This document shows, piece by piece, positions 884 through 64,000 of a stretch of 64,000 nt of DNA. This DNA comes from Loxodes magnus. Taxonomy: Eukaryota > Ciliophora > Karyorelictea > Loxodida > Loxodidae. A model generated the notes under the pieces. That model had not been told where the DNA came from and did not search any database. It saw nothing but the letters and a program-made list of their open reading frames with translations. How positions within the stretch are numbered: position 1 is the first letter of the stretch; each line of letters begins with the position of its first letter. The translations under genes were made by a program, and so were the position numbers. The stretch lies in assembly GCA_946699065.1 (NCBI GenBank), contig CAMPDV010001042.1:89565-153564 (forward strand), written 5' to 3'.

Positions 884-3800
884 TCATGCTTACTTTTCTT
901 AAACTTCTTCTTTATCTATTACTACTAGATATTCCTTATCACTTCCATTATCAATTTCAATTTCCTCTCTAAAGTTTTAATCCTCCGAGCATAATGGTTA
1001 ATTTACAGATTTAGAATCTTCTAATTATAATTTTTTGTTTGGCCTATGAGTAAATTATGCTTTTTCAAATTATACCTCTTTTTGATCTTCTTAAGTATTC
1101 ATAATTTCACCAGCTTCTTTAATTTGATTAAAGAACTTTATTTATGATGAATCAATTTTACTATTTTCTTATAAACAAAGCTCTTAGCTTTGTAATTCTT
1201 AATATTGATTTGTAGTTTCGTTAACGAACTTTAAAATTTTCTAATACTTAGGATTTAGCTCCATTTTATAAGAAATCAACTCTTAATTTCCTATTTCTTA
1301 TTTTACTATGTTAAAAACTTACCTTCAGAATAACTCTTTAATCTTTCTTAATCTATCGATTTAACTAGTTTTTTCCAACTTACTTCGTTATAAATATACT
1401 TAATCAGTAGAAATACTAGAACAAATGCTATTAAAATTTACATTAGAATTACTGAACTAAAGCTTAATTTATCAGAAAATGAATTGGTTTGCACACATCT
1501 CTAAAGATTTGTAAATTTACATTTCTTTTAGTACTTTATTTAATCTTGCTCACAGTCTCCTCCATCATATTTACATTCTTCATTGTTACACTTTTAATCA
1601 CATATTCCATTTTATATAAATGATAGAAACTGACATCCTGTACTTAAGCATTTCTATTATTAAACTTTTATTTTTCAATCTAAACATTCAAGATTATCAT
1701 AGTTACACTCTTTAATATTACATTAAAAATCACATATTAAGTTATTAAAATGTTGCTGAATGCATCCCTTTTATGCGCAGTCTGTTAAATAAGTAAGTTA
1801 ACTATCACAATCTCCTTTATCAAACTTACAATCTATATTAAAGCATTATTAATCACATTTCTTATTTCCTAATAATTAATTAGCACAAGTACAATTACTA
1901 CAATCTCCATTATCTTTATTACATTCTAGAATGTTACATTTCTAATCACATATTCTATCTCCTAATCAGTACTTAGGACATCCTTTCTATTCACATCTTT
2001 CATCATTAGCTAATTTATTTTTAAAGTTACTTTACTATCTGTCTTAATCATCATTTTCACAGTCTCCTCCATCAAAATCACATTCTGTTACATTGCATGA
2101 AACATCACACTCTCCATCGTAAACTCATGATCAATAACAATTTTCACTACATTATACATATTAGCAATCAGGTCAATCATATTAGCACTCTTTATTTAAG
2201 CATTATTTATCACAATTTTGATTATTTCTTAACTATTAATTACAGTTGCAAGTACTTTAACCTCTATTTTAAAAACTACAATCTTCTCCATCATAAAGAC
2301 AATTGAAGTTATAGCAACTGTAATCACATAATCCATCATTTATTCAATTTATAGAGCAATCTTAAGAACATTTATTAGTAGAAGGAAGTATTTAAGCATT
2401 TTAGTTTAAGCAATCTAGATAATCATATTTACAATTCTTTTCATCTTTACAATAAAAATCACAAACCCCATTTTATAACTAACTTAAATCACAACCAGTA
2501 GAACATTCACAATCTCCATAATCATAATTACATCTTTCTACATCACATTGAGTGTCACAAAATCCATCTCCTAAATAATAAACTTAACATTATTCAGAAC
2601 ATTCGCAATCTCCATAATCGTAATAGCATTCTTAAGTTAAACAATATAAATCACATTTACTATTTCCTAATGAAGTAGCATTACATCCAATAGAACACTC
2701 ACATTCATAAGAATCGAAGTTACAACCAATAAAGCTACAATTCGAGTCGCATTATCTGTTTATAGATAGAACTTAACATTCATGAGGACATGAGCAATCT
2801 CCTTCATCATAGTTACATTACTAATTATAGCATTCAGGATTACAAAATTCATTGTTCAAAAATAAGAAATGACATGCAATAGAGCATCAACAATCTTAGC
2901 CATCATAATTACATTTGTAGCTATCACATGAGAGATCACAAATTCCATCTCCTTATTTTAAAATACATTCTGTAGAACATTAACAATCGCCACTATCATA
3001 ATTACATTATTCATTATAGCACTAAAAATCACAATTTCCATTTCCTAACATATCAAAAGTGCATTATTTGCTGCATCTACAATCCCAATTGTCATAATTA
3101 CAAAGTTCATTATTACATTATTAATCACAAATTCCATTTCCAAGCTAAATTTAATTGCAAGATGTTGGACAGAGACAATCTCCTTAATCTCAATTGCATT
3201 ACTCAAAATTACATAATTTGTCACACTAAGAATCACCTAGTCAAAATACGGGACAATAAAGTGCACATCTACAATCAAAATTATCATAATTACAATCTTT
3301 AAAGTTGCATTACTGATCACATTTTCCATCTCCTAATAAAGATTAATCACATTATTATAAGCAGAGACAATCTCCTTAATCATAGTCACATAATTAAAAA
3401 TTGCATTCATCGTTGCAAACTCCATTACCTAGCAACTCATTTGTACATCCTACTACGCAAAGGCAATTCCAATTATCATATTTACAGGATAAAGAATTGC
3501 AATCTGTATCACATTTACTATTTCATAATAGATTAGTATCACAGGTAGGTGAACATTGGCAATCTCAATTATCATAATTACATTACTCATAATAGCATTC
3601 TAAATCACATACTCCATTTAATTAAGAATGATCTGGACAATCTTCTGCGCATCTGCAATTAAAATTATCTCAGTTACAGTCACTTAGATCACATTCTTTA
3701 TCACATTTTCCATTTTCTAGCATATCTTAAGTACAAGTTATAGGGCAATTGCAATCTCCATTATCATAATTACATTATTCATTATTGCATTAGTTATCAC

Positions 3801-6800
3801 ATATCTAATTATCTAAATAATAATCCGGACATTCTTTTGCACAAGTACATGCCCAATTATCATAATTACAACCTTTAAAATTACATTCAGTATCACATAT
3901 TTCATTTAATTTTAAATCTTAAGTACAATTTTAAGAGCAAGAGCAACTTCAATTATCATAAATGCATAATTCAGTATTACATTCATCTTGACATATTTCA
4001 TCTAATTATAAATTTAATGAACATTCTTTAGAGCAAAAGCAATCTTAATTATCATAGTTACATTACTAACTATTACAGTAAATATCACAATTTTAATCTC
4101 CTAATTTTAAAAAATCGCAGGAAAAGGAGCATTAACATTTTCCATTATCATAATTGCACTATTCTCTATTACACATACTATCGCAAAAGAGATTATCTAA
4201 AAGGTTGCTTGAGCAACCTTTGGCACATGTACAATCTCAGTTATCGAAATCGCAACCATAAAAGTTACATTCTTCATCGCATTTTCCATTCTATTACAAT
4301 TCTTAAGTGCAGTTTTATGGACATAAGCAATCCCAATTATCATAATTACATTATTCTACATTGCACTAAGAATTACATTAATTATTACCTATTGCTCAAG
4401 GATAACATCCTATAGAGCAACTACAATCATATAAATCATAATTACATCCAGCATAATTACATTCAGAATTACAATATCCATTTCCCATTAAAGTGAAGTT
4501 GCAATTCTCTGGACAAGCACAATCATAGTAGTCTCATTAACATTATTCTACATAACATTCATTATCACAATTTCCATTATTTAAATAATCATCTGGACAT
4601 TATTATGCACAAGCACATTTTCAATTATCAAAATTACAATCTAAAATATTGCATTCCTCATTGCATTTTTCAGTTTCTTCTGAATCTAGTCTACAGTATT
4701 CAGAACACTAGCAATCTCCTCTATCATAATAACATTGCTCATTATTGCATTCAATATCACATACATTGTTTCCTAATTATTCTTTTTAACAATTTCCGTA
4801 ACATCCACAATCAAATCCATCGAAATTACATTGTAAACTATTACAAGTTTCCTCACATATACCATTTCCTATTAAAAATTTAATGCACGTTTATGAGCAT
4901 AAGCAATCAAAATTATCATAATTACATTATTCTGAATTGCAAGCACTGTCACATATTTCGTTTTCTAAAAAATTATTCTAGCAACCTTAGAAACATGTAC
5001 AATCTCAATTGTCATAATCACAACCTTTAAAGTTACATTCTTCATCGCATTTTCCATTCTACTACAAGTCTAAAGTACAGTTTTATGGACATAAACAATC
5101 CCAGCCATCATAGTCACATATAGATATATTACAATTTTCACTGCATACTTAATCACCTTTCATGTAAGGTATGCATCATTCTTAGCAATTACATTCCTAT
5201 AAATCGAAATAACATCCAGGAACATTACATTCTTCGTTACACTATCCATTTCCAATTCAGGAAACATCACAAGAATATGGACATTTACAATCTCAATTAT
5301 CTCATAAACATTCTTCAACATTACAATCATAATCACAAAATTTATTAGCTTGTAAAATATTTGTGCAATAATCTGCACAGGTACATTTTCAATTATCATA
5401 ATTACAATATTTAAAATTGCACTCTTCATCACATTTTTCGTTTTCTCTCAAATCTTAAGTACAAGATTATGGACAATTACAATCTCCTTTATCATATTTA
5501 CATTGTATCATATTACATGTAGCATCACAATATCCATTTCCTAGCTAATCATTCCTGCAATCTATATAGCATTAACAATCAAAGTTATCTCAATTGCATT
5601 CATTATTATTGCAGCTTTCATCGCATTCTCCATCTCCTAATAATATTTAATCGCATTATGAAGGACACTAACAATCTCAGTTATCATAATTGCATTATTC
5701 TAAATTGCATTCATATTAACATACTCCATCACCCTAATATATTTAAGGACAATTTTATGAGCATGTACAATCCCAATTATCATAATTACATCTATATGAA
5801 TTACATTCTTCATCACATTTTCCATTCGATTGCAATTCTTAGATACAACTTTTCTTACACTTACATTATCAATTATCAAAATTACATTATTCTACATCAC
5901 ACACAGAATCACATCAAAAATTTTCTGAAGCTTCAGTAGTACAATTTTCAAAGCAAAGACAATTTAGATTGTCGTAATAACAGACTTCAGAATTACATTC
6001 TTCATCACATTTCTCATTTTCTAGTAAATTTTAAGTACAAGATAGTGGACATAAACAATCCCCGTTATCAAAATTACATTATTCATTATTACACTCTTAG
6101 TTACATACTCCGTTACCTATGTTATCTTATCAGCAATCCATATAGCACATGCAATCAAAATTATCTCAGTTACATTATTATAAATTACATTACTAATCAC
6201 AAGTTAGATCTCCTAATAATGATTAATCGCATGCTAATGGGCATAAACAGTCTCAATTATCAAAGTTACATTATTCAATGTTACATTATTAATCACATTT
6301 ACCATTTTTTGAAAAATATTCTATACATGAGTAACTACAAGCTTTTTATTAATCATCCATTACAAAATCTTTTTTAGAAAATCCTAGAGCATAATTATAC
6401 CAGTAGCATCTGTCTTCAAATTCATTTAAACAAGTTTAATATCCCTTAGGAAATATTTCACTGTTTCCAAATATAAAAATTCCTACTATTGCATGTGCTA
6501 TCAAAGCATAAGGTATCAGATTTTGAATACTAATGTGTATATTAAATGAATATTTTTATATTTTCTTATAGAAAGTAAGCAATAAATATTTATCTGATAA
6601 ATATGCAATAATAAGAGTAAAAGTAGATATTATTATAATTAAAGGAATACCAGAAGAATAAACTAAGGAAGTAAAAACTATTGCACATATAAATGCACTT
6701 TATTATGGCAGATCAAATTCAGAACCATTTAGTTCGTTATTTTAGATTTAAGTAACAATTTTTTTAGATTTTCACTTTGCTATTAGTAGTTTGAAAGGTT

Positions 6801-8616
6801 TCAAAATAACTTTAAGTAAATTAGGAATTACTGATGCTACAATCATAGTTATAGTTATGCCTTTTCCAGCATTGATATACCAATATCTTACAAATATTTC
6901 CCTATAAAGTTAATCAATTACCATAATAGTAAAAGCGTAATTAAAGAACTAGAATATGAATATCTTTTATCATAATATTTTTTAAGATTCTACTTATTCA
7001 TGCTTCCTTTCTATTTTGTTTAATTTCTTCAAACTAAAAATTATAACTCTGTTCCAAAAAATTATTACTAAACCTATTCCTATTTAAATAGCTCAATGCT
7101 TTAACAACTCTTCTCTAAAATTGTTACAAAACTAAGCTTCATCAGATTTACCTTTCAAAATATCATAAACATCTTATTAATAGCATCAACAATAATATCC
7201 TTTAGAAGAAGTATCATATTAATAAGTTTCTTTAGCATATTCTTTCTATAAGTCTTATAATTTTATTTTACTATCCTTTAAAATGTTTCTATTAACAGCT
7301 ATGTAATATTACTCGCATTCAGATTTGGTTGGAAAATTCACGTTTTCGGCTTAATTGATAGATCAAATTAAAAGTAAGGAAATGCCGATTATAACTCCTG
7401 AAATAAGCGATACAAATAAAGATTATAGCTTTTATTTCCAATAAGATACTTCAAAGTTTTCCCAACATATCTAAGAAGGTTCTTATGCTTCTTTTACAAT
7501 AAGAGGTTGATTTTGATTCCATTAAATTTCTTTAGGTTACATTTATGGAAAATATTAAGTTTCTCTATAATCGTTTATGCATTTGATTTACGATTAAACA
7601 TGCTCGAAAATAATGAAAACTTTAACTATTTCTTATTCTTGATTTTATTCTTTCATATTAGTTTTCCTTACTTCATTTAGAATATTCATGAGTTTTTATT
7701 CATTTTTTTTATTTTATTTTTTCCTTGATTAAAGTTAGTTTTAAATTTCTTATTTTATTATTTTTATTTATAATTTCTCAGCCTCATCATAGCATTTTTA
7801 ATAAAAGGATAAGTTTTAAATTTATCTTGCTATTACTATTTCATTAATTTATCCATATTTTCCAAAGAAATTTCTTATTTTATTTTCATTTATTCCTTAC
7901 TTTGGTAATCCTCTTATTTCAACACTATATTTTCCTACTCTATTCTCTTAAAACTTAAATCTGTGCAATCTTTTTTTCGTTTTAAGTCAGTAACAAAATA
8001 AGAAAAATAGAAATACTATGCACTAAGCAAAGTCTAGTAGCCCTTCTTGCAAGTTTCTCCGTTTTGTTTAGTTTAAAATATCTCTTTCGTATAATTATTG
8101 TTGTTCATCTTTGTCTAAAGACTTTTTTACATTTTCAATTTATATTCCTCGTAATTTGTATCACTTATAAGTATATTTACTAGTTTCTCCTTTCAAATTT
8201 TATGTTCTAGTGTAATTTTCATCGAAAATCCAAAAGTCTACTATCTTTTTCCCAGTATCAAGGTTACCAATCGTTAGAGATTCTAAAATTCCAGCTTCAT
8301 CTTTCTCATAACCTTTTCCTTTGTAGTTCAAATAAATTTTTCCTATACTTATACAACTTAAAATGACAAAAAGGAATATTAATCATTTTACTCAATCGAA
8401 ATAGAGCTCAATTCCTATTCCAAATTATCTTACATTTTTGGGTGGAACTTAAATAACTTGTAAGTTCCTTTCTTCTTTTAGATCTTCAGTTTGTTTCACT
8501 TCTTCAGTACCTTTACTTTTTCTTTCTTGCTCTTATTACAAATTACTTTCCACTTTTGCTACCTCTTTTGAGTCTTCTTTATGTACGTTTACTAAAGAAT
8601 CCTCGGGGTAAAACAT
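884..8616 (-). CDS. OSCA/TMEM63-like channel with giant Notch/LNR repeat array, copy 1 (intact)
   Basis: One 17-nt intron (1306-1322) joins two exons into 7,716 nt, giving about 2,571 aa that end at TGA 884-886. The start is the ATG conserved in all three copies. Residues 1-74 are hydrophilic. A membrane segment (about 78-96) and another (about 196-211) flank a 100-residue loop. An RRM-like cytosolic part follows, with VEIRGLPKQG at about 232-241 and VFIIFEH near 333. The ICWENF motif at about 383 matches the WENL-type motif that precedes the channel core in OSCA/TMEM63/CSC1 proteins. Seven or so membrane segments span about 398-717. Residues about 770-2357 are some 48 LNR-type repeats (C-D-x2-C-N-x3-C-x2-D-x2-D-C-x-C). 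A last helix (about 2387-2412) and an acidic tail of about 160 aa close the protein. Counting helices puts the repeats outside the cell. Known family members are mechanically gated ion channels; gating by the repeats is my inference. UGA encodes many Trp residues. Anoctamin/TMC relatives are the alternative superfamily assignment. Confidence 0.82.
1306..1322 (-). other. 17-nt intron in copy 1
   Basis: On the minus strand the sequence is GTAAGTTTTTAACATAG, with GT and AG ends. Removing it switches to a frame encoding a sensible tail (ending V-V-I-D-K-E-E-V-Q-E-K-Q-A) that stops at TGA. It also makes the whole coding length divisible by three. The same 17-nt intron with one base changed lies at the equivalent site in copy 2. 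Heterotrich ciliates are known for 15-16 nt introns, so this size is plausible. Confidence 0.8.
1545..6370 (-). repeat. LNR-type cysteine repeat array within copy 1
   Basis: About 48 tandem coding repeats, mostly 96 bp (32 aa) apart. Each carries the core C-N-x3-C-x-(F/Y)-D-x2-D-C, as in Notch LNR modules (compare C-N-N-H-A-C-G-W-D-G-G-D-C). The residue before the last D-C is often Trp encoded by UGA. Units from about 4.2 to 5.9 kb are most alike every eighth repeat: the segment around 4268 recurs near 5035 and 5803. This gives a higher-order period of about 768 bp. Units near the 1.5-2.4 kb end are more divergent and irregularly spaced. The regular DNA repeats are coding and are not a CRISPR array. 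Confidence 0.85.
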
Positions 8617-25290: not shown

Positions 25291-26876
25291 TCAGATTTTC
25301 ATTTTGAACGTCAGGTTTAAAACATTTTCATTCGTTGTCGACTAATGTAAACTTTTAAAGTTCTAAGATCTTTGAACATCCTTAAACGTAACAGTCAGTC
25401 CTTGCGCTGATACTACTTATTTGAGTGAGCTTTGTAAGCCAATATGAGTTGGTTGACCTACTATAAGCAATACAAGACTGTATTATAAATTTCCCAAAAT
25501 ATAAACTGGATGCTTTAGTTTCTGGAAATGAAGCTCACCACAACTAATCTATATTTATTACGTCTAATACATATCATTGTCTTCAAAGCAAATTTTCTCT
25601 TCTTCGTTATTAATGGAATTTTCTTAAGCTACCTTTTGATATATTATGTAATATTATTCTTATGCTTAGACTCCTTTTAAAATTCCAAACCCTGTTAAAT
25701 AGCAATTAACATTTGTATAAAACGTAAGATAGAAGTCAGGTTCAGACATGAAGTACTCGAATTCATCATTTACAACCTTATCACATCTTAATATATTGAT
25801 AACATTTTCCTCATTATTCATAATGACATCTTAAGAATTTTTTTCTTTCTTATTCTCTTCAGAGTTTGATCTACTAAAGATACTTTATTTTAAATTCTCT
25901 TAAGATCTTTAAGGATTTATTAGTAAATTTTCTTCGGATGATCCCCCTTCATTTAAAATAATATTTTTATTTTAATTATCACTTACCTTACCCTCTGAAT
26001 TATATTATTTTCTATCTAGCTGAGGTATGCATTTTTACATTTTGAATCTAATGCTTTAAATTTATAATTGCCTCGACTAAGAGGCTAAAGTTCTAAAAAA
26101 AAAATTCAATCTAGAGTATTCTGAACTATCTCTTAATTATATACTAGCTTTATCTTAAATTTTTTATTGTTCTTAATAATTTTGATTGTATTTACTTTTT
26201 TAATCTTCTTATGAAGTTCTTTGACTTACTAAAAATCTTATATCCACATATTTCGAGTATCCACTTTTTCTTATATTTGTTTTATTTAATTCTTATTTCT
26301 TAAAATTGTCTCCAATTGATCGTCCATGATTTTTATTATATTTTAAACTTTATTTTGGGAATTTTGAAACGATTTCTGATATTAATTTTCAAAAAACATT
26401 TAGAGCTTTTAATACTCTTACTAAAACTAATTTTTAACCTCTTTACGCATATCATTACTTTAACTTTACAATTAATCTTTTCATTTCTATATACCTTGAA
26501 TATCAAATTCTTAATTCGGAATTTTTTGGAGTTTCTACAGAAGGCAAAATATGGTATCATAATAGTTGTTTTTGAATTTCAGAAAACTGCATTATTTATG
26601 CTGCTATGATGAGCAATCAATACATAAGAACTAAAGATGCTTTTAACAATAGGTTAATAAATTGCATTTTTGGCTTTAATTATTGTTATTTATCATCTCA
26701 ACCATTGAATAGTTCGTTTTTATGTCGTCTTCGTTTAATTAAGTTCTATCAAAAGGACATTCGCTAATCTTGTTACTGCATTAATAGCAGATGGTATGAT
26801 CGCAAACTAATATCATAGGAATTCGGTCAATTGTATCAAAATCATATCAGCAAAGTTTGCATTAAAGATTCACTTT
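25291..26876 (-). CDS. TRIM-like RING, B-box, coiled-coil, PHR-domain protein
   Basis: This is a probable E3 ubiquitin ligase of RBCC design. Reading leftward from about 26862, a RING finger has C-K-L-C, then L-V-C-D-H-T-I-C-Y-Q-C and E-C-P-F-D, with the usual last Cys replaced by Asp. A B-box-like C-Q-K-H...C-I-D-C...H-K-Q-C lies at about 26585-26667. A Gln/Lys-rich coiled coil follows (about 26100-26580). The C-terminus (about 25293-25760) resembles a PHR domain: Y-L-T-G-F-G-I-L-K-G, then H-F-Q-K-L-K-H-P-V-Y-I, V-T-F-K and a final L-T-F-K-M-K-I before TGA 25291-25293. The frame before and after about 26016-26038 differs by two bases. A 23-nt GT..AG intron there restores it; an indel is the alternative. 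Several Trp codons are UGA. The RING begins only a few codons into the readable frame and I could not find the ATG, so the start is unresolved. The gene stands alone. Confidence 0.68.
26016..26038 (-). other. candidate 23-nt intron in the RING/PHR gene
   Basis: On the minus strand it begins GTAAAAATGC and ends CTCAGCTAG. Its removal joins the B-box/coiled-coil frame to the PHR frame; the required shift is 2 modulo 3. No 17-nt GT..AG alternative was found at this site. It is longer than the 17-nt intron of the giant gene, so the call is cautious. Confidence 0.4.
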
Positions 26877-28566: not shown

Positions 28567-28639
28567 GCCCGGCTAGCTCAGTCGGTAGAGCGTCAGACTC
28601 TTAATCTGGTGGTCGTGGGTTCGAGCCCCACGTTGGGCG
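28567..28639 (+). tRNA. tRNA-Lys (anticodon CTT)
   Basis: The sequence folds as a 73-nt cloverleaf. The acceptor GCCCGGC pairs with GTTGGGC, allowing two G-U pairs. The D-arm contains TAGCTCAGTCGGTAGAGC, and the anticodon stem-loop has CTT at 28600-28602 (tRNA positions 34-36). The T-arm contains GGTTCGAGCC (B box). There is no intron and no encoded CCA. The discriminator base is G. It reads AAG lysine codons. It is the only tRNA I recognise in the window. Confidence 0.95.
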
Positions 28640-41900: not shown

Positions 41901-43661
41901 ATTCCTTTTCCAACATTGATATACCAATATCTAGTAAATATTTCCTTATTAAGTTAGTCAATTATCATAATAGTAAACGCATAGTTGAAAAACTAAAATA
42001 TAAACATCCTTTATCATAAGATTTTTTAGGTTTCAACTTATTCATGCTTCCTTTCTATTTTGTTTAGTTTCTTCAAACTTCAAATTATAACTCTGTTCCA
42101 AAAAATTATAACTAAACCTATTCCTATTTAAATAGCTCAATGTTATAATAAATCTTCTCTAAAATTGTTACAAAATTAAGCTTCATCAGATTTACCTTTC
42201 AAAATATCATAAACATCTTATTAATAGCATCAGCAATAATATCCTTTAGAAGAAGTATCATATTAATAAGTTTCTTTAGCATATTCTTTCTATAAGTCTT
42301 ATAATTTTTATTTTACTATCCTTTAAAATGTTTTTATTTACAGCAATATAATATTACTCGCATTCTGTTTAAGTTGGAAAATTCACATTTTCGGCTTAAT
42401 TAATTAATCAAATTAAAAGTAAGGAAATACCTATTATAACTCCTGAAATAAATGATACATGAAACGATTATAACTTTTATTTCCAATAAGATACTTCAAA
42501 GTTTTCCCAACATATCTAAGAAGGTTCTTATGCTTCTTTTACAATAAGAGATTAGACTTAATTTCATTTGATTTCTTTGGGTTAAAATTATGGAAAATAT
42601 TATGTTTTTCTATAATTGTTTATACATTTTATTTACGATGGAGCATGCTCAAAAATAATGAACACTTTGACTATTTCTTATTCTTGATCTTATTCTTTCA
42701 TATATGTTATTTTTACTTCATTTAAAATGCTTTATAGCTTTTATTCTAGTTTGTTATTTTATTTTCTCTTAGATTAAAGTTAATTTTAAATCTCTTATTT
42801 TGCTATTTTTACTTATAATTCCTCAACTTCATTATAACATTTTTAATAAAAGAATAAGTTTTAAATTTATCTTCCTATTACTATTTCATTAATTTACCCA
42901 TATCTTTCAAAGAAATCTCTTATTTCCTTTTCACTTATTCCTTGCTTTGGTAATCCTCTTATTTCAATGCTATATTTTCCTACTCTATTTTCTTATAACT
43001 TAAATATTTTTAATCTTTTTTTCGTTTTTAGTCAATAACAAAATAAGAAAACTAGAAATATTATGCATTAAGCAAAGTCTAGTAATCCTTCTTACAAGTT
43101 TCTCCGTTTTGTTTATTTTATAATATCTTGTTCGTATAAATTTTGCTACTATTCTTTGTCTAAAGAACTTTTTACATTTTCAATTTATATTCCTCGTAAC
43201 TTATATCACTTATAAGTATATTTACTAATCTCTCCCTTCAAATTTTATGTTTTTGTATAATTTTCATCGAAAATTCAAAAGTCTACAATCTTTTTCCCAG
43301 TATCAAGGTTTCCAATCGTTAGGGATTCTAAAATTCCTGCTTCATCTTTCTCATAGCCTTTTCCTTTATAGTTCAAATAAATTTTCCCTATACTTATACA
43401 ACTTAAAATGACAAAAATGAAAATTAATCATTTTACTCAATCAAAATAGAGTTCAATTCCAATTCCATATTATCTTATATTTTTGGAAGAAACTGGGAGA
43501 ACTTATAAATTCTATTCTTTTTATGGATTTTCAATTTATGTAATTTCTTCTATCTATTTACTTCTTTTTTCTTGCTCTTATTACAAAAAAATTTTCGTGT
43601 TGTCTGTCTCTTTTGAGTCTTCTTTATGTATGCTTACTAAAGAATCCTCAGGGTAAATCAT
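35934..43661 (-). CDS. OSCA/TMEM63-like channel with giant LNR array, copy 2 (one frameshift)
   Basis: A paralogue of copy 1 with the same order: hydrophilic N-terminus, two membrane segments around a 100-residue loop, RRM-like part, channel core, about 48 LNR repeats, last helix, cytosolic tail, TGA at 35934-35936. It has the same 17-nt intron (36353-36369). The LNR region up to the intron has exactly the same length as in copy 1. A 5-T run at 42305-42309 (4 T in copy 1) adds one base after about residue 450. It shifts the frame before the channel core unless the base is an assembly error or corrected in the RNA. Copy 3 is in frame at this site. A further net 3-nt deletion near 41790 keeps the frame. 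One Trp (residue 129 of copy 1) is UGA here and UGG in the others. The last 120 residues diverge strongly from copy 1, keeping only scattered motifs and a Glu-Glu-Val end. Confidence 0.75.
36353..36369 (-). other. 17-nt intron in copy 2
   Basis: GTAAGTTTTTAATATAG on the minus strand differs by one base from the copy 1 intron and lies at the same codon phase. Conservation of length and ends between diverged paralogues supports a real intron. Confidence 0.78.
36590..41420 (-). repeat. LNR-type cysteine repeat array within copy 2
   Basis: Same organisation as the array in copy 1: about 48 units of about 96 bp. The eighth-repeat periodicity is also visible, with the catcgcattttccatt-type segment near 39317, 40082 and 40853. 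Equal total length with copy 1 means no repeat was gained or lost since the duplication. Confidence 0.82.
42305..42309 (-). other. single-base frameshift in copy 2 homopolymer
   Basis: A five-T run (minus-strand AAAAA) where copy 1 has four. The resulting frame is wrong until the gene end, while downstream sequence keeps coding character in the original frame. Either a recent mutation or a homopolymer sequencing error. Confidence 0.65.
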
Positions 43662-46800: not shown

Positions 46801-49780
46801 TACTATTAATTTTATAGATAAAATAGACAAACTTTGCGATATTGACATAAAAGCATTTTATTATGCTAGCTTAATAATTTCTAATTTAAATAATTAAGCT
46901 ATTAAAAATTATTAGACTAATTATAATTTTTTAAAGCAAAGCTTAATGTTTTTCCTTTCTCTATTTCATTAAAATAATTATATATAATACATAATTAATT
47001 TTTATAACATTTGGTTCTACTTCAAAGTTAACTAAAAGGTATAATAAACTAGAAAATAATTTAAAGTTATTGAATAAAAAATAGAAATTGAAAAAAGATA
47101 AAGCCCGATAAAAGTATTGATACTCTTTAGTTATAAAGATTATTTTATTACTTTATATAAATAAGAGAATAATAGTTAATATTTTATTTTAGTAATAATT
47201 AAAAGTTTAAAGTTAATATAAGAAAGGAACTTTAACTTTTAGTAATAAATTATTATAAATAGTTATTTCTTTTCTCTTACATAATTTTGTAGAAAAAGAA
47301 AATTAATAAATTAAATGTATTAAATAAAAATCTTTAAATTTATAAATAAATTTTAGTTTTATTTATTTTAATAAATTCCTTAATCTTAAATAATCGAATA
47401 TCATTATAAAAAAATTTAATTCATCTATAATTGAAAATAATTTATCAAATTTAGTAATTTTATATTTTCATTATTTATTTAATTTTTTTTAAATATCAAG
47501 CAAATATAACAAGCAAGAGAGATTTTTACAATTATTTAAGCAAAAAATGTAAAAAAAGTAGATATAGATTAGCTGCTTCAAATAAGAAATTTATAATAAT
47601 ATAAATTAATTTTTAGTGCTAATAGGTTATCTTATATCTCTTTTTAATTTCTTTAAGTAGAAATATTAACTAGTAACTTTATATATTAGGTTAAAAGTTT
47701 GAATTTTATCTTTTATTGAATGAAGTTAAAAGATAAACTTAGAAGCTTTTATATAAATTAAATAATTTTTAATAGCTTAATAATAATAAAATTAAGGGAA
47801 ACAATTATAAATAAATTATTAAAACTATAAGATTCGTCAAAGATATTATCTATCTCTTTTATAAGAACTTCATACTATTATACATGTATTAAAAAAAATA
47901 AAATAAATAATTATCAAATCTGATTTATAAAAGCATAAGCAGAAAATAGAATTAAGAAATAATAATTAAACATAGAAGATAAAGTAGAAATATATAAAAC
48001 TTAAATTATGGTTCTTGTATAAATTTTATTTTAATAGTGTATCTTAATAATTTTTTCATATCTACAAAAATTCATAAATTTTATTCGATATGTATTTATA
48101 TTAAAAAGACTTGCAAATTATTTGGCAAAAGATTCAAACATTTTATAAATTTGAAATAAAAAAATCGTACAATGTTTTTATTTTTCTAAATATAATAAAA
48201 TCACATCAATGAAATTTAAAAATATATTTAAAATTTAAAATGTAAATAGAGCAAAAATTATAAAGAAGATATATTTATTTCTGAAAAGGAATGAAGCTAT
48301 TATTTCTTTAGATTTAAAAAAATAATTTTTTTATTAAAAAATTTAAAAAATTTGATTATACAAAAAATTATTTTTAAGTTGTCTTAAATAATAAATTTAT
48401 TTATTTATTATATAATTATTTCTTAGATTTTTCTTAAAATAAGTTAAATTAAAAATAGATTTATTTAATTTCTTAGCAAAAAAAACTAAAAAATTAGAAA
48501 ATAAAATTTAAATAAATAGATTTTATTATTATTTAGGAAAAATCTGAAATGATAAATTTACTAGACAATAAATAGTTAGGTAAACATTTTTAGTTAAATA
48601 AATAAATTTAATTTTCTAAACAAAATTTTTTTAATTAATTTGAGAAAAATCAAAATTTAAGAAAATTAAAAATTATAAAATTTATAAATAAAATGATGAA
48701 TTTCACTCAAAATCAAATAATTTAAATTTTTAGTTTAAATAAAATTTACGCTTTAGTATTTTTTTAATTAATTTAATTTTAAATTTTTTGATTAATAAAA
48801 TAGGTATTTTCATATAAAAATATAAACTTAATCCTCCGCAAAATTATTAGAGAAAGTTTTTCCTACCTTTAAAATAATTATGAAAGAAAATATTTCGTTG
48901 CCATCTAGTTATTTATGATTTTATTTTTTCTTATAATTCAATTATTTTTTGTTTAATCAAATTTCTAAATTTTAAATAAAATATTTCTCTATAAAAAGTA
49001 ATATTTTTTTATAAATTACTAGTAATTATATTTTTCTTAATATTGTTTAAAGAAATTGTAAAAATTAATAAATAGTTGCTTTAAATTTAAAATTAACATA
49101 AGCATTAATTGGTCAAATGTAGAATTTTTAATATTCAATCTTTTAACTTTTTTGTTTAATCCCAATAAATTTAATTTAGCTATTAATTTCATTATACAAT
49201 CTGGATAAATTCGTATCATTTTTAATTTTTCCAAAATAGATAGTTTGAAAAACATTTACTTATATTTCTTTTCATTTCTAGAAATAAGACACTGAATCAA
49301 TAATTTGTTATTCTTAACTTAACCAATAAATGAAAAATTAAAATTTTTCTTAAAATAGCTTTCTATGTTTTTACCAAAAAGTTACTAAACTTTTGTTTAT
49401 TCATTTTTTATTTAATTTAATGTTTTTTTATTTTAAATACTAAATTTTAATTTATTTTTAATTTTTTTCTTAAAATGTAAAGAATCAAGTTAAGGAATAA
49501 ATGAAAATAGTTGTAAAAGCTTTAAGAAAATGTTAAAATCATAATATTACTAAATTTAAATTTAATAAGCATTGTTATGAATCTTTCGTATTTAAAGATA
49601 AATTTTGATTATTTTCATAAAGATTAAATTATTTCTCATTAAGCTTATGTAAGCTATTTTCTAACTTACTAAATTAAAAGCTTTATAATCATAGATTTAT
49701 ATTTTGGATATAAAACACACACAATTTTACAAGAAAATATCAGAAAATAGGTGCTATATTAACGAAAATATCAAGTATTT
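43900..49780. other. long AT-rich region without a recognisable gene
   Basis: No motif-bearing frame, tRNA or structured repeat seen in nearly 6 kb. It provides the upstream region of the DOMON gene, where I can point to no promoter motif. Confidence 0.5.
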
Positions 49781-49786
49781 TTATAA

Positions 49787-50389
49787 ATGTTGATATATTT
49801 ACTCTTTGTTGCTTTAGTCAACACAAATTCAGAAATTATCGATTTAACTGATGAAATTTCCATTCACTGGGGCATTGGTGAAACCGTCATGAATATCTCT
49901 GTTGGATGTACTTCAAATATCAACTGGGTTGGAATAGGTTGGAAAAAGACAAGTGAAGGTGGAGGCATGGCTGGAGCTGATATGGTTCTATTTGAAGGAG
50001 ATAAGGCAACTGATATGTATGCCACCTCAAATTCTATGCCAGATATTGATACTTAGCAAGATATTCTTTATAATGGTATGTACGAATATGATGGAAGAGA
50101 TTGGTACGTATGCTAGAAGGCAAATCCAACGAACGATAAATAAGATGTTAAGATTGACAGCGGAGAGTATTGGTTATTGTATGCTTGGGGTACAGGCGAT
50201 TATAGTGACCATGGCAAAAATGCTGGAATGATTAAAGTAAATTTTCTTGAGTAACAAGGATATTTTCCAGATTAGAATGACGATTCTTAGCAAGAAATTA
50301 GTCTTGACAATAGTAAAAATGGAGATACGGATGAAGATAGCTCTTCTTTATTACTAATAGCTTCTTACGTTATTGCCCTATTAGTATGA
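49787..50389 (+). CDS. secreted or GPI-anchored DOMON-domain protein
   Basis: An uninterrupted 200-codon gene from ATG 49787 to TGA 50387-50389, with several UAG/UAA codons read as Gln. All Trp codons are UGG. Residues 1-15 form a short signal peptide. Residues about 17-150 match the DOMON fold: I-H-W-G-I-G, a central W-V-G-I-G-W-K-K followed by M-A-G-A-D-M-V, then D-M-Y-A-T-S, and a late Y-W-L-L-Y-A-W-G-T-G-D-Y. DOMON domains bind haem or sugars in secreted or membrane oxidoreductases. No cytochrome b561 or monooxygenase part is attached here. The C-terminus is acidic and Ser/Asp-rich and ends in a hydrophobic stretch, as in GPI-anchor signals. More in-frame UGAs follow shortly after the stop. 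Its base composition stands out from the AT-rich flanks, and it is solitary. Confidence 0.85.
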
Positions 50390-54504: not shown

Positions 54505-55810
54505 ACTTTTTTTAAGCTTATAAGAAATTCTGCCTCAGGTAATGATGGTTTAAAAGCAGAATTAATTAAATATGGAGGATAGGAATTACATAATATAGTT
54601 ACAAGCTTTAGTAACAATAGTTAAGAACACTCACTATACCAAATGAATTGAAAAGAATTAATATTTTACCTATTTTCAAAAAAGGAAGTAAAAGTATCTG
54701 AAGAAATTGAAGACCAAATAGCCCTACCGAATTACTTACTTAAAATATATGATAAAGCATTAACTTAAAGACTATATAATTTAATATACGAAAGAAATAT
54801 CATTCATCAAGCTTAATTTGGTTTTTATCGGAAAAGATCGACATCATAACAAATTTGAAAAATTTAATAGATTATTGACTTGCATCGTAGATGGACATAA
54901 AAAAAAAGTTAATTGCTACTCTAATAGACGTGGAAAAAATGTTTGACAGTATACCAAGGAAAATGCAATTTGATCATCTAAGAAGACTTAGATTACCTCT
55001 GAGATTGATAATGGCACTTGAATCTTTTTATGAAAATATTGATGCTAAGTTCCCTATTGAAGGCAATATTACAAGATCAGTTAAGTTAAATAGTGGAGTA
55101 TTATAAGGAAGCAGCAATGGACCTGCACTTGCAATAATTTACTATGATATTGTAATTAGATATTTAGAAGAAAAATAACATAAATATGGCTATTCTATCT
55201 GCTAGAGAAATTTTGTGGTTCGTGGCTTTGCAGATGACTTAATTGAGCTTTCTAATTCATAGTAAAATGCATAAAAATTACTCAACACCACAAAAAAATA
55301 TTTTCTTGAGTAAAACTAAATATAAATGTGGAAAAATGTGAAGTAATTTAGTTCTTAAAAAAGAAAGAAAATAGAATTTAAATAAATTTAAATATTAATG
55401 GAATTCCTATTGTTTAAAAGGACGAAATTACATATCTTGGATACAGATTGGGAAATAAATAAAATTATAAACTACACTGGGCAAGTAAAGTATCTGACTT
55501 CAGAGTAGCAGTTTTGAAAGTATCAGCAATTCTTTCTAAGTATGGAGTAGTATCACCACTCAATTTTAAAACACTTTGCAGAACGTTTATTTTTACTAAA
55601 ATAGAATATGGAAGCGATATAACTCCTTGAAGTATCATGTCAGGACTTAAAGGAATGAAAGCTTAAATAACTAAAAGTTACAAAGACTCATTTCAAGGAA
55701 AGCATTTAAATCTCCTTAATCGGCATTAATGAATCTTACTTCATTGATCTTAATTGGCTTCCGTTTACACACAAGGCTATATTAAAATTCACTATTATTT
55801 GTATCTAATT
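54505..55810 (+). mobile_element. LINE reverse transcriptase remnant
   Basis: Plus-strand non-LTR RT in order: G-N-D-G-L-K-A-E (about 54540), I-P-N-E-L-K, then P-I-F-K-K-G-S-K with N-W-R-P-N-S (about 54675-54730). Next are Q-F-G-F (about 54820), L-I-D-V-E-K-M-F-D-S-I-P (motif A, 54915-54950), V-L-Q-G-S-S-N-G-P-A-L (motif B), and R-G-F-A-D-D-L (motif C, about 55220) with both catalytic Asp present. K-C-E-V-I, Y-L-G-Y-R-L-G and a C-terminal L-Q-R-L-I-S-R-K-A-F follow. Reading it needs frame changes near 54740, 55320 and 55670, so it is dead. UAR is read as Gln and UGA as Trp throughout. It is the same family as the remnant at 19.0-20.6 kb. No endonuclease domain or 3' hairpin is attached. Confidence 0.8.
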
Positions 55811-60663: not shown

Positions 60664-63600
60664 ATGATTTACCCAGAGGATTCTTTAGTCAATGGACATA
60701 GAGAAGACTCGTAAAAGGTAGAAAACTTAGAAAGCTTTTTGCAATAAGAGTAAGAAAGAAGAAGTAAATAAATAGAAGAAGCTAAACAAAGTAGTAATTC
60801 ATAAGAAGAATAAAACTTATAGATTCTTTAAGTTTCTCCTAAAAATGTAAGATAATTTGGAATAGGAATTGAACTCTATTTCGATTGAGTAAAATGATTG
60901 ATATTCATTTTTGTCATTTTAAGCTGCATAAATATAGGAAATATTTATTTGAACTATAAAGGAAAAGGTTATGAGAAAGACGAGGCAGGAATTTTAGAAT
61001 CTCTAACGATTGGAAATCTTGATACTGGGAAAAAGATAGTAGACTTTTGGATTTTTGATGAAAATTACACTAAAACATAAAATTTGAAAGGAGAGACTAG
61101 TAAATATACTTATAAGTGATATAAATTAAGAGGAATAGAAATTGAAAATGTAAAAAGTTCTTTAGATAAAGATGAGCAGCAATAGTTATACGAGTAAGAT
61201 ATTATAAACTAAACAAAATTGAGAAACTTGTAAGAAGGACTACTAGACTTTTCTTAGTGCATAGTATTTTTAGTTTTTTTAATTTTTTACTGACTAAAAA
61301 CTAAAAAAAGATTAAAATAATTAAAGTTATAAGAGAATAGAGTAGGAAAATATAGTGTTGAAATAAGAGGCTTACCAAAGTAAGGAATAAGTGAAAATTA
61401 AATAAGAAATTTCTTTGGAAAATATGGATAAATTAATGAAATAGTACTAGGAAGATAAATTTAAAACTTTTCTTTTTATTAAAAATGTTATGATTATGTT
61501 GAGGAGATATAAATGAAAATAGCAAAAGAAGAAATGTATAACCAACTTTAATCAAGGAGAAAATAAAATTAAAAAAACGAATAATAACTTATTAAAATTC
61601 TGAATGAAGTAAGAACAACTTATTTGCAAGAATAAGGTCAAGAAAAAGAAATAGTTAAAGTTTTCATTATTTTTGAGCATATTCAATCGTAAATCAAATG
61701 TATAAATGAATATAGAGAAACCTAACATTTTCCATAAATGTAGTCTAAGGAAATTTAATGGAATTAAATCTAACCTCTTATTGTAAAAGCAGCATAAGAA
61801 CCTTCTTATATATGTTGGGAAAACTTTGAAGTATCTTATTGAAAATAAAACTTATAATCATTATATATATCGTTTATTTCAGGAGTTATAATAGGTATCT
61901 CCTTACTTTTAATTTGATTAATTAGTAAAGCCGAAAATTTGAATTTTCCAACCAAATCAGAATGCGAGTAATATTATATAGCTATTAATAGAGACATTTT
62001 AAAAGATAGTAAAATAAAAATTTAAGACTTATAGAAAGAATATGCTAAAGAAACTTATTAATATGATACTTCTTCTAAAGGATACTATTGCTGATGCTAT
62101 TAATAAGATGTTTATGATATTTTGAAAGGTAAATCTGATGAAGCTTAGTTTTGTAACAATTTTAGAGAAGAGTTGTTAAAACATTGAGCTATTTAAATAG
62201 GAATAGGTTTAGTAATAGTTTTTTGGAATAGAGTTATAATATTTAGTTTGAAGAAACTTAACAAAATAGAAAGGAAGCATGACTAAACAGAATCTTAAAA
62301 AATATTATGATAAAAGATGTTTATATTCTAGTTCTTCAATTACGCTTTTACTATTTTATTAATTGATTAACTTTATAGGGAAATATTTGTAAGATATTGA
62401 TATATCAATGTTGGAAAAGGAATAACAGCAACTATGATTGTGGCATCAGTCATTCCTAATTTGCTTAAAGCTATTTTGAAACCTTTCAAATTATTAATAG
62501 CAAAGTGAAAATCTAAAGATCTTATTAATTTGATTTAAAAATAACGAATTAAAAGGTCCATAATTTGATTTATCATAATAAAGTGCATTTATATGTGCAA
62601 TAGTTTTTACTTCCTTAGTTTATTCTTCTGGTATTCCTTTGATTATAATAATATCTACTTTTACTCTTATTATTGCATATTTATCAGATAAATATTTATT
62701 GCTTACTTTCTATAAGAAAACATAGAAATATTCCTTTAATATACACATTAGTATTCAAAATTTGATACCTTATGCTTTGATAGCGCATGCAATAGTAGGA
62801 ATTTTTATATTTGGAAACAGTGAAATATTTCCTAAGGGATATTAAACTTGTTTAAGTGAATTTGAAGATAAATGCTACTGATATAATTATGCTCTTGGAT
62901 TTTCTAAAAAGGATTTTGTAATGGATGATTAATAAAAAGCTTGTAGTTACTCATGTATAGAATATTTTTCAAAAAATGGTAGATGTGATTAATAATGTAA
63001 CATTGAATAATGTAACTTTGATAATTGAGACTGTTTATGCCCATTAGCATGCGATTAATCATTATTAGGTGATTTAATTTGTAATTAGCAATGTAATTTA
63101 AAATAGTGTAACTGAGATAATTTCGATTGCATGTGTTATATGGATTGCTGATAAGATAACATAGGTAACGGAGTGTGTAACTAAGAGTGTAATATTGAAT
63201 AATGTAATTTCGATAACGGTGATTGCTTATGTCCACCATCTTGTACTTAAGCTTTAATGCAAAACTAAAAATGTGACGAAGAATGTAATTTTGAAATCTG
63301 TAATTATGATAATCAAAAATTGTCTTTGCTCTTAATTTTGTACATCTTTAGCTTCCAAAAATTCTATTTGCGTGTAAGAGTGTAATGTAGAATAGTGTAA
63401 TTTTAGTAATTGAAAATGCTAATGTAGATAAAGCTGCACCTAAGAACTGCAATAGAATGGAAAATGTGATGAAGAATGTGATTTATAAAATTGTGATTAT
63501 GATAATTGGGATTGTACATGTTCATAAAACTGTCTTAAAGCATGATTAGGTGATGGATATTGTTAGAACGAATGCAATTTTAGAATAATGCAATTTTGAT

Positions 63601-64000
63601 GACTGAGATTGCTAATGCCCTTCATAATGCAATTAATTATTATTAGGAAATGGAGAGTGTGATGATAGCTGTAATATAAAAGAATGTAGTTGAGATAATT
63701 TCGATTGTTAATGCTAGATAAATTGCTGGAATAATTAGCTTGGAAATGGATATTGTGATGCCTCATGTAATATAAATAATGTAGTTACGATAAAGGAGAT
63801 TGTAATTGTCCATAATCTTGTACTTAAGATTTAAGAGAAAATGAAAAAATGTGACGAAGAGTGCAATTTTAGATATTGTGATTATGATAATTGAAAATGT
63901 ACATGTGCAGAGTATTGCTTAAACACTTTTCAAAATGATGGATGATGCGATCCTGAGTGCAATTTAGAACAGTGTCAATGAGATAATTTAGATTGCTAAT
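60664..64000 (+). pseudogene. OSCA/TMEM63-like channel with LNR array, copy 3 (decaying, cut by window end)
   Basis: It starts with the same ATG and stays in register with copy 1 for 1,850 nt: N-terminus, first two membrane segments, RRM-like part with E-I-R-G-L-P-K-Q-G, and I-C-W-E-N-F. From there single-base indels accumulate relative to copies 1 and 2: +1 between 62514 and 62591 (inside the channel core), +1 at about 63315, +1 at about 63577, -1 near 63775 and +1 near 63842. Some are in homopolymers and others are not, so sequencing error alone is unlikely. LNR repeats begin near 62970 and continue past the window edge. Many Trp codons are UGA; Trp codons that are UGG in copy 1 (for example in R-Y-W-Y-I-N) are UGA here. 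The intron and tail lie outside the window. Confidence 0.75.
62970..64000 (+). repeat. LNR-type cysteine repeats of copy 3 (partial array)
   Basis: About ten to eleven 96-bp units with the C-N-x3-C-x-F-D-x2-D-C core, aligned with the start of the copy 1 array, and with frame changes between units. The array is cut by the window end. Confidence 0.75.

Follow-up and report, generated by a model that had tools for sequence, protein, structure and literature searches.

LNR arrays in the last extracellular loop of a family of OSCA/TMEM63-related membrane proteins in the ciliate Loxodes magnus

Background

Is a membrane core resembling the OSCA/TMEM63 channels joined to an array of LNRs in a single protein of the ciliate Loxodes magnus, and what might such a protein do? 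The question is raised by a gene, here called gene A, on the minus strand of a 64,000-nucleotide stretch of the L. magnus genome (the window; contig C1042:89565-153564). The prevailing view of OSCA/TMEM63 channels is that they respond to force in the bilayer, and LNRs are known mainly from Notch. A first reading made from the letters of the window (the sequence-only reading) had described gene A as a single giant fusion of such a channel with about 48 LNRs and suggested an extracellular tether or contact sensor. Following it up in the window and in the assembly of 705,730,643 bases confirmed and extended the observation on gene A and partly supported the interpretation. The fusion stands, as one member of a large family in which the array forms a closed loop between the last two transmembrane helices (TM9 and TM10).

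Results

Gene A encodes one continuous protein

The L. magnus macronuclear assembly comprises 706 Mbp, is read with translation table 27 and has 17 bp as its commonest intron length, according to the accessible text of the genome paper (PMC11441545). Translation of gene A (884..8616, minus strand) under code 27 with removal of one 17-nt intron (GTAAG...TAG, 1322-1306), as the sequence-only reading had proposed, produced a protein of 2,571 aa in which 39 in-frame TGA codons upstream of the intron are read as Trp and the terminal TGA lies at 886-884. Code 27 has no dedicated stop, so that two adjacent genes, a channel and an LNR protein, might be misread as one, and an open frame proves nothing under this code (accessible text of PMC11441545); for that reason, conservation was used as evidence for gene A.

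DNA self-comparison of the window revealed two further copies of the family: paralog B (minus strand, about 43661-35930, the low end being approximate), which has the same architecture as A and is 86.8% identical to it over 8,250 b, and paralog C (plus strand, 60664..64000), which contains the core and the first LNRs and runs off the contig end. In their coding parts, B differs from A by one 1-nt indel in a homopolymer near 42309 and C by five 1-nt indels, which are either long-read errors or decay. Compared across 2,566 codons, A and B are 82.7% identical at the aa level, with a ratio of nonsynonymous to synonymous substitution (dN/dS) of 0.26 overall, and the 17-nt intron (1306..1322), in the cytosolic tail, is at the identical place in both. 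A, B and two close paralogs elsewhere in the genome, L055 and L056, have 32 Trp positions in common, and at eight of these both TGA and TGG occur.

The junction between TM9 and the first LNR (residues 723-759; 6340..6450) has a dN/dS of 0.10 over these four sequences. Its C729, C737 and YWYN motif are invariant in nine sequences (profile A6, which includes L057), with core identity down to 36%, a conservation qualified by an altered YWYN in L060, L063 and L065. The frame was unbroken in all 30 fetched loci (L021-L050), each of which reads on through 13 or more LNRs in the space of 500 residues; L053 drops out of frame after a few LNRs. A hydrophobic helix, the tenth, follows the array in 11 of the 14 proteins checked, which are all of the complete cases; in the remaining three, the fetched sequence ends too early. 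The conserved junction led us to reject two separate genes, an explanation now highly improbable, and the continuity claimed by the sequence-only reading was upheld. An assembly artefact was likewise rejected, the same joint being present in 46 of the 46 places looked at.

The core is a divergent relative of OSCA/TMEM63

PHM7_cyt, the cytosolic domain of the OSCA/TMEM63 proteins, was matched at E <= 1 in all 11 cores of an eleven-sequence profile (A3); the match was 2.3e-4 in B and rose above the Pfam cut-off of 27 in L052 (34.4 bits) and L054 (39.2 bits), both 57% identical to A. RSN1_7TM was matched in 6 of the 11 cores, at best with 2.1e-4 and 21.2 bits, under the cut-off of 28.7, and partially (160-271 of 274). 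When A6 was compared with the PDB (177,635 sequences), the first eight of 13 matches at E <= 0.1 were TMEM63A/B chains (best 2.5e-5, TMEM63A), followed by two RRM chains and then three of OSCA3/ERD4, and the alignment to TMEM63A consists of collinear pieces at 71-123, 184-413 and 603-693. Profile A3 ranked TMEM63B first at 2.4e-5. A canonical L. magnus OSCA, L058 (RSN1_7TM 109.5 bits), was matched by a profile of the A3 rows only at 7.5e-6, compared with a best of 0.037 among 1,000 shuffles, and the second piece of this alignment stops where A leaves TM9, which is the insertion point. Like OSCA/TMEM63, the family has a PHM7_cyt-type domain between TM2 and TM3 and a collinear transmembrane core, as well as, by eye, E-P-x-x-I-x-W-E-N ahead of TM3 and YS-x-x-x-P ... 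D-K-Y in the 7TM region. The relation proposed by the sequence-only reading is thus borne out, and the core is probably best described as a divergent OSCA/TMEM63 relative, an assignment that is weak from gene A by itself and firm with its relatives.

A core from TMEM16 or TMC, within the same superfamily, would fit the presence of ten helices without the helix called TM0, and the Anoctamin profile matched 2 of the 11 cores, at best with 1.1e-4 and 21.7 bits, under its cut-off of 28. Cross-matches between OSCA/TMEM63 and Anoctamin may occur inside one superfamily (accessible text of PMC11534332). Against such an origin, PHM7_cyt was matched in every core, twice above cut-off, and the 48 PDB matches of A3 at E <= 10 included chains of both TMEM63 and OSCA and none of TMEM16 or TMC, leaving this assignment improbable.

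The array occupies a closed extracellular loop

By hydropathy, the cytosolic domain of gene A is preceded by two helices and followed by eight, ten in all if the 43-residue hydrophobic stretch 639-681 counts as two, as was assumed by analogy with OSCA. The N-terminal segment (residues 1-65; 8422..8616) has no hydrophobic helix. It is followed by TM1 (78-96), an outer loop and TM2 (193-211; together 7984..8385), where piece 71-123, weak on its own, aligns to TMEM63A 133-185. Next come the PHM7_cyt-like cytosolic domain (230-387; 7456..7929), placed by Pfam and by the relatives' cores, and TM3-TM9 (399-722; 6451..7422), placed by hydropathy, the RSN1_7TM matches and the match to the canonical OSCA. 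Beyond the array lie TM10 (2387-2410; 1387..1458; hydropathy 2.83) and the cytosolic C-terminal tail with its stop (884..1305).

Six-Cys LNRs need an oxidising space. TMEM63C has helices TM0-TM10, its N-terminus outside, its C-terminus inside, a cytosolic domain between TM2 and TM3 and TM10 as the last helix (accessible text of PMC10636204), a topology from which the TM9-TM10 loop is placed outside the cell. Together with hydropathy, this agrees with the last extracellular loop named by the sequence-only reading. The loop measures about 1,660 residues in A, compared with about 5 (HKHEN, by eye) in L058. Because both ends of the array enter the membrane, it is a closed loop, and a free tether was rejected.

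The fusion is an old and numerous family

The core of A found 58 places in the genome and the core of L057 found 66 rows. In a union drawn up by hand, 15 of the 66 were already present among the 58 and four rows stood for two split genes, giving 107; with the unlisted B added, the family comes to about 108 places, alleles included. Because both searches score best candidates only, divergent members could have escaped them; searching once more, with the L051 core, gave no additional place. Contig C76 alone carries 17 places. LNRs follow TM9 in 46 of the 46 places looked at among the roughly 108 (L021-L050, where L021 is A; L051-L056; L057; L059-L065, seen from about TM8-TM9 onward; B and C), and the one canonical OSCA looked at, L058, is without LNRs. 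The core of L057 is as little as 36% identical to that of A, and the fusion of LNRs to the core is therefore old in this lineage. The single fusion of the sequence-only reading is accordingly recast as a member of a large old family.

Array length is equal in close copies and differs between clades. A and its three close paralogs B, L055 and L056 all have 48 repeats (B via alignment), and the other complete arrays contain 44, 43, 32, 15, 14, 9, 8 and 7 by signature; for short arrays, Pfam stretch counts differ from these by up to two. In three further arrays, the fetched sequence stops after 13, 16 and 19 LNRs. The L061 array contains a run of nine almost identical LNRs, a sign of recent expansion.

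LNR genes of another kind also occur. L001, L003, L007, L008 and L017 have 14-26 LNRs and no channel core within the 3.1 kb fetched; some of them end in acidic low-complexity tails, and L003 ends in a PA14-like segment (by eye). LNR arrays are thus a wider module in the L. magnus genome.

Composition and growth of the LNR array

Pfam Notch/LNR (PF00066) matched gene A at 1.1e-219 in 45 stretches. Six-Cys parsing identified 46 repeats plus two short ones, giving 48 LNRs with 288 Cys, in agreement with the estimate of the sequence-only reading. LNRs 1-41 (residues 760-2069; 2410..6339) are joined by one-residue linkers in a 32-aa period, two being one residue short and one being one residue long. 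LNRs 42-48 form a stem with longer linkers (2083-2355; 1552..2370), in which the spacings between parsed repeats are 13, 37, 21, 40 and 11, those of 37 and 40 each holding one short LNR missed by the pattern. L055 and L056 show the same spacings, and those of L051 (15 for 21) and L054 (36 and 16) come close to them; in the L052 stem, one repeat with a lost Cys is also missed by the pattern.

Neighbouring repeats alternate in type, identity being higher at even than at odd distances over distances 1-24 in both A and B. This difference amounts to 0.054 across 35 repeats of A and was matched by 0 of 10,000 permutations (sd 0.0066), and repeat-to-repeat identity peaks at distance 8 in both genes. 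The alternation and this maximum suggest that the array grew by units of two and eight LNRs. For 40 of 41 repeats of A, the best match in B is the repeat at the corresponding position, and growth is therefore older than the A-B split.

The array is under purifying selection. Between A and B, dN/dS is 0.23 in the core, 0.23 in the array and 0.65 in region 2387-2571, and 285 of the 285 Cys of residues 787-2386 are kept. These values bear on the possibility that the proteins form a surface coat or recognition family, in which LNR loops serve adhesion, mating, prey recognition or protection and the core acts mainly as an anchor or a lipid scramblase, functioning hardly or not at all as a mechanosensitive channel. 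Such a role is suggested by the clustering of the family, with 17 of its places on one contig, by the LNR giants that lack a channel core, and by uneven variation over A, B, L055 and L056, where mean identity is lowest in repeats 5, 11, 13, 21 and 23 (60-69%) and highest in repeats 1-2 and the stem (86-93%). However, constraint on the core equal to that on the array would be unusual for a mere anchor, and in the same four sequences, none of LNRs 1-35 exceeds a dN/dS of 0.57, the highest stretch, 2070-2113, reaching 0.99 at a very low dS of 0.043. We regard a coat or recognition role as possible but distinctly less likely than a force-sensing one.

Every one of the 48 repeats of A has an Asp at C6-4, and 30 have Asp or Asn at all three ligand positions, which we take to be those of the Notch LNRs. 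The array is disulphide-rich, probably Ca2+-binding and presumably stiff. With 286 D+E and 79 K+R, the loop is strongly acidic, and it might instead act as a Ca2+-buffering or shielding cap that covers the pore mouth and tunes permeation or Ca2+ supply without a role in force. A precedent is human TMEM63A, in which an N-terminal soluble domain shields the pore (accessible text of PMC10319725). The full ligand set in only 30 of the 48 repeats argues against a cap, as does a size range of about 7 to 48 LNRs, which is odd for so simple a device, and we consider it quite unlikely.

The Pfam scan of gene A found no Notch NOD or NODP family at E <= 1, and most LNRs directly abut one another. The Notch-like force switch suggested by the sequence-only reading was rejected on the lack of NOD/NODP.

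Other features of the window

A reverse transcriptase fragment (RVT_1, 1.4e-14) lies between B and C at 54879-55517 (+) and is possibly related to the duplications that gave A, B and C. The window also contains a DOMON domain protein (Pfam 2.4e-11) at 49505-50389 (+), a PHR domain above cut-off (27.3 bits) at 25291-26544 (-) and a tRNA-Lys (CTT), identified by ARAGORN, at 28567-28639 (+).

Discussion

We favour, with a probability of about one half, the reading that these proteins are surface mechanosensitive channels in which a stiff, probably Ca2+-binding LNR arm loads TM9 and TM10. The family comprises OSCA/TMEM63-type ten-helix proteins which, in the members looked at, have the array in place of the short extracellular TM9-TM10 loop and which most likely act as mechanosensitive cation channels in the cell membrane or the cilia. 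Carried by TM9 and TM10 as a stiff closed loop, the array could touch matrix, substrate, prey or other arrays like itself and transmit load to both helices. The OSCA pore is formed within TM3-TM7, and TM10 is turned towards the dimer interface (accessible text of PMC10636204); load on the loop would consequently act beside the pore. The tether or contact-sensor function of the sequence-only reading is retained here as a proposal of this kind.

Several results weigh against this reading. PHM7_cyt reached just 6.5e-4 and 20.4 bits in gene A, under the cut-off, and 0.59 with 10.8 bits in C; of the families that the sequence-only reading had named, Notch/LNR was thus found in A itself, PHM7_cyt above cut-off in L052 and L054, and RSN1_7TM below its own cut-off in six of the 11 cores. 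Searching the PDB with gene A alone gave no TMEM63 chain at E <= 10, TMEM63B came 8th (E 6) when the profile was built from the window copies only, and the single pieces of the alignment between A6 and TMEM63A are weak by themselves (i-Evalues 40, 0.02 and 49). Profiles of plant OSCA1 only did not place the A core above shuffles, with an hhalign probability below 1%, and L051 matched Anoctamin (1.1e-4) slightly better than PHM7_cyt (4.4e-4). AlphaFold2 gave a mean predicted local distance difference test score (pLDDT) of 32.4 for the core with five alignment rows and of about 32 for eight LNRs with 22 rows. TM0 is absent from the gene A core, the PDB alignment beginning at TMEM63A residue 133. 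Because the layout with 11 helices, TM0 and the N-terminus outside was not found, we place the core inside the OSCA/TMEM63 branch, where it ranks as a divergent relative and not as a standard member. A family of about 108 places, finally, also fits adhesion or surface-coat roles.

A more specific version of the favoured reading, which we think unlikely and offer tentatively, is that of single-chain tip-link channels, in which the LNR loop, stiffened by disulphides, would gate the OSCA/TMEM63 core and its repeat number (about 7 to 48) would set its reach, giving graded force sensors at the cilia, the surface or the Mueller vesicle membrane. The family also provides a concrete list of candidates for the transducer of the Loxodes gravity organelle. 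This organelle, the Mueller vesicle, is mineral (accessible text of PMC10954788); a statocyst role is speculation drawn only from the biology of the host. In a broader sense, arms that are equal in close copies and differ between clades constitute a natural series with which to ask whether this fold can be tether-gated too, and LNRs join the building blocks of long arrays outside animals.

No description of LNR/Notch repeats joined to OSCA/TMEM63 was found in literature titles and abstract openings, with subscription journals and preprints outside the scope, in line with the sequence-only reading, which knew of no such insertion. In its main text as accessible, the genome paper on L. magnus (PMC11441545) does not mention Notch, channel, gene family, mechanosensation or gravity. 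A protein search with the core of A matched 0 of 7,609 candidates at E <= 0.01. Among 5.8 billion proteins, residues 560-1060 of P0001 gave 16 matches among 650 scored candidates of similar total length, all 16 listing PF00066 and none listing PHM7_cyt or RSN1_7TM among their precomputed Pfam domains. Three of these, P0133, P0136 and P0138 of the ciliate Blepharisma stoltei, are likewise giant proteins that combine LNRs with hydrophobic helices near the C-terminus. They differ in having four to six N-terminal LNRs (Pfam), a long middle and another membrane part (by eye), and a Pfam scan found no PHM7_cyt in them at E <= 1.

Compared with known systems, the family departs from the solved OSCA/TMEM63 members, which have TM0 (accessible text of PMC10636204), and from the canonical L. 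magnus OSCA, whose loop of about 5 residues is replaced here by about 7-48 LNRs. With Notch it shares the PF00066 domain, the six Cys and the Asp/Asn ligand positions. In Notch, three LNRs cap a heterodimerisation domain in a single-pass receptor, whereas here up to 48 stand in a loop of a multipass protein with no NOD/NODP match. The closest functional parallels would be the tip-link cadherins and ankyrin-spring channels such as NOMPC, in which a long repeat arm is proposed to load a mechanosensitive channel. Unlike in those systems, arm and channel are here one chain, and the arm lies outside the cell, is rich in disulphides and has an anchor at each end.

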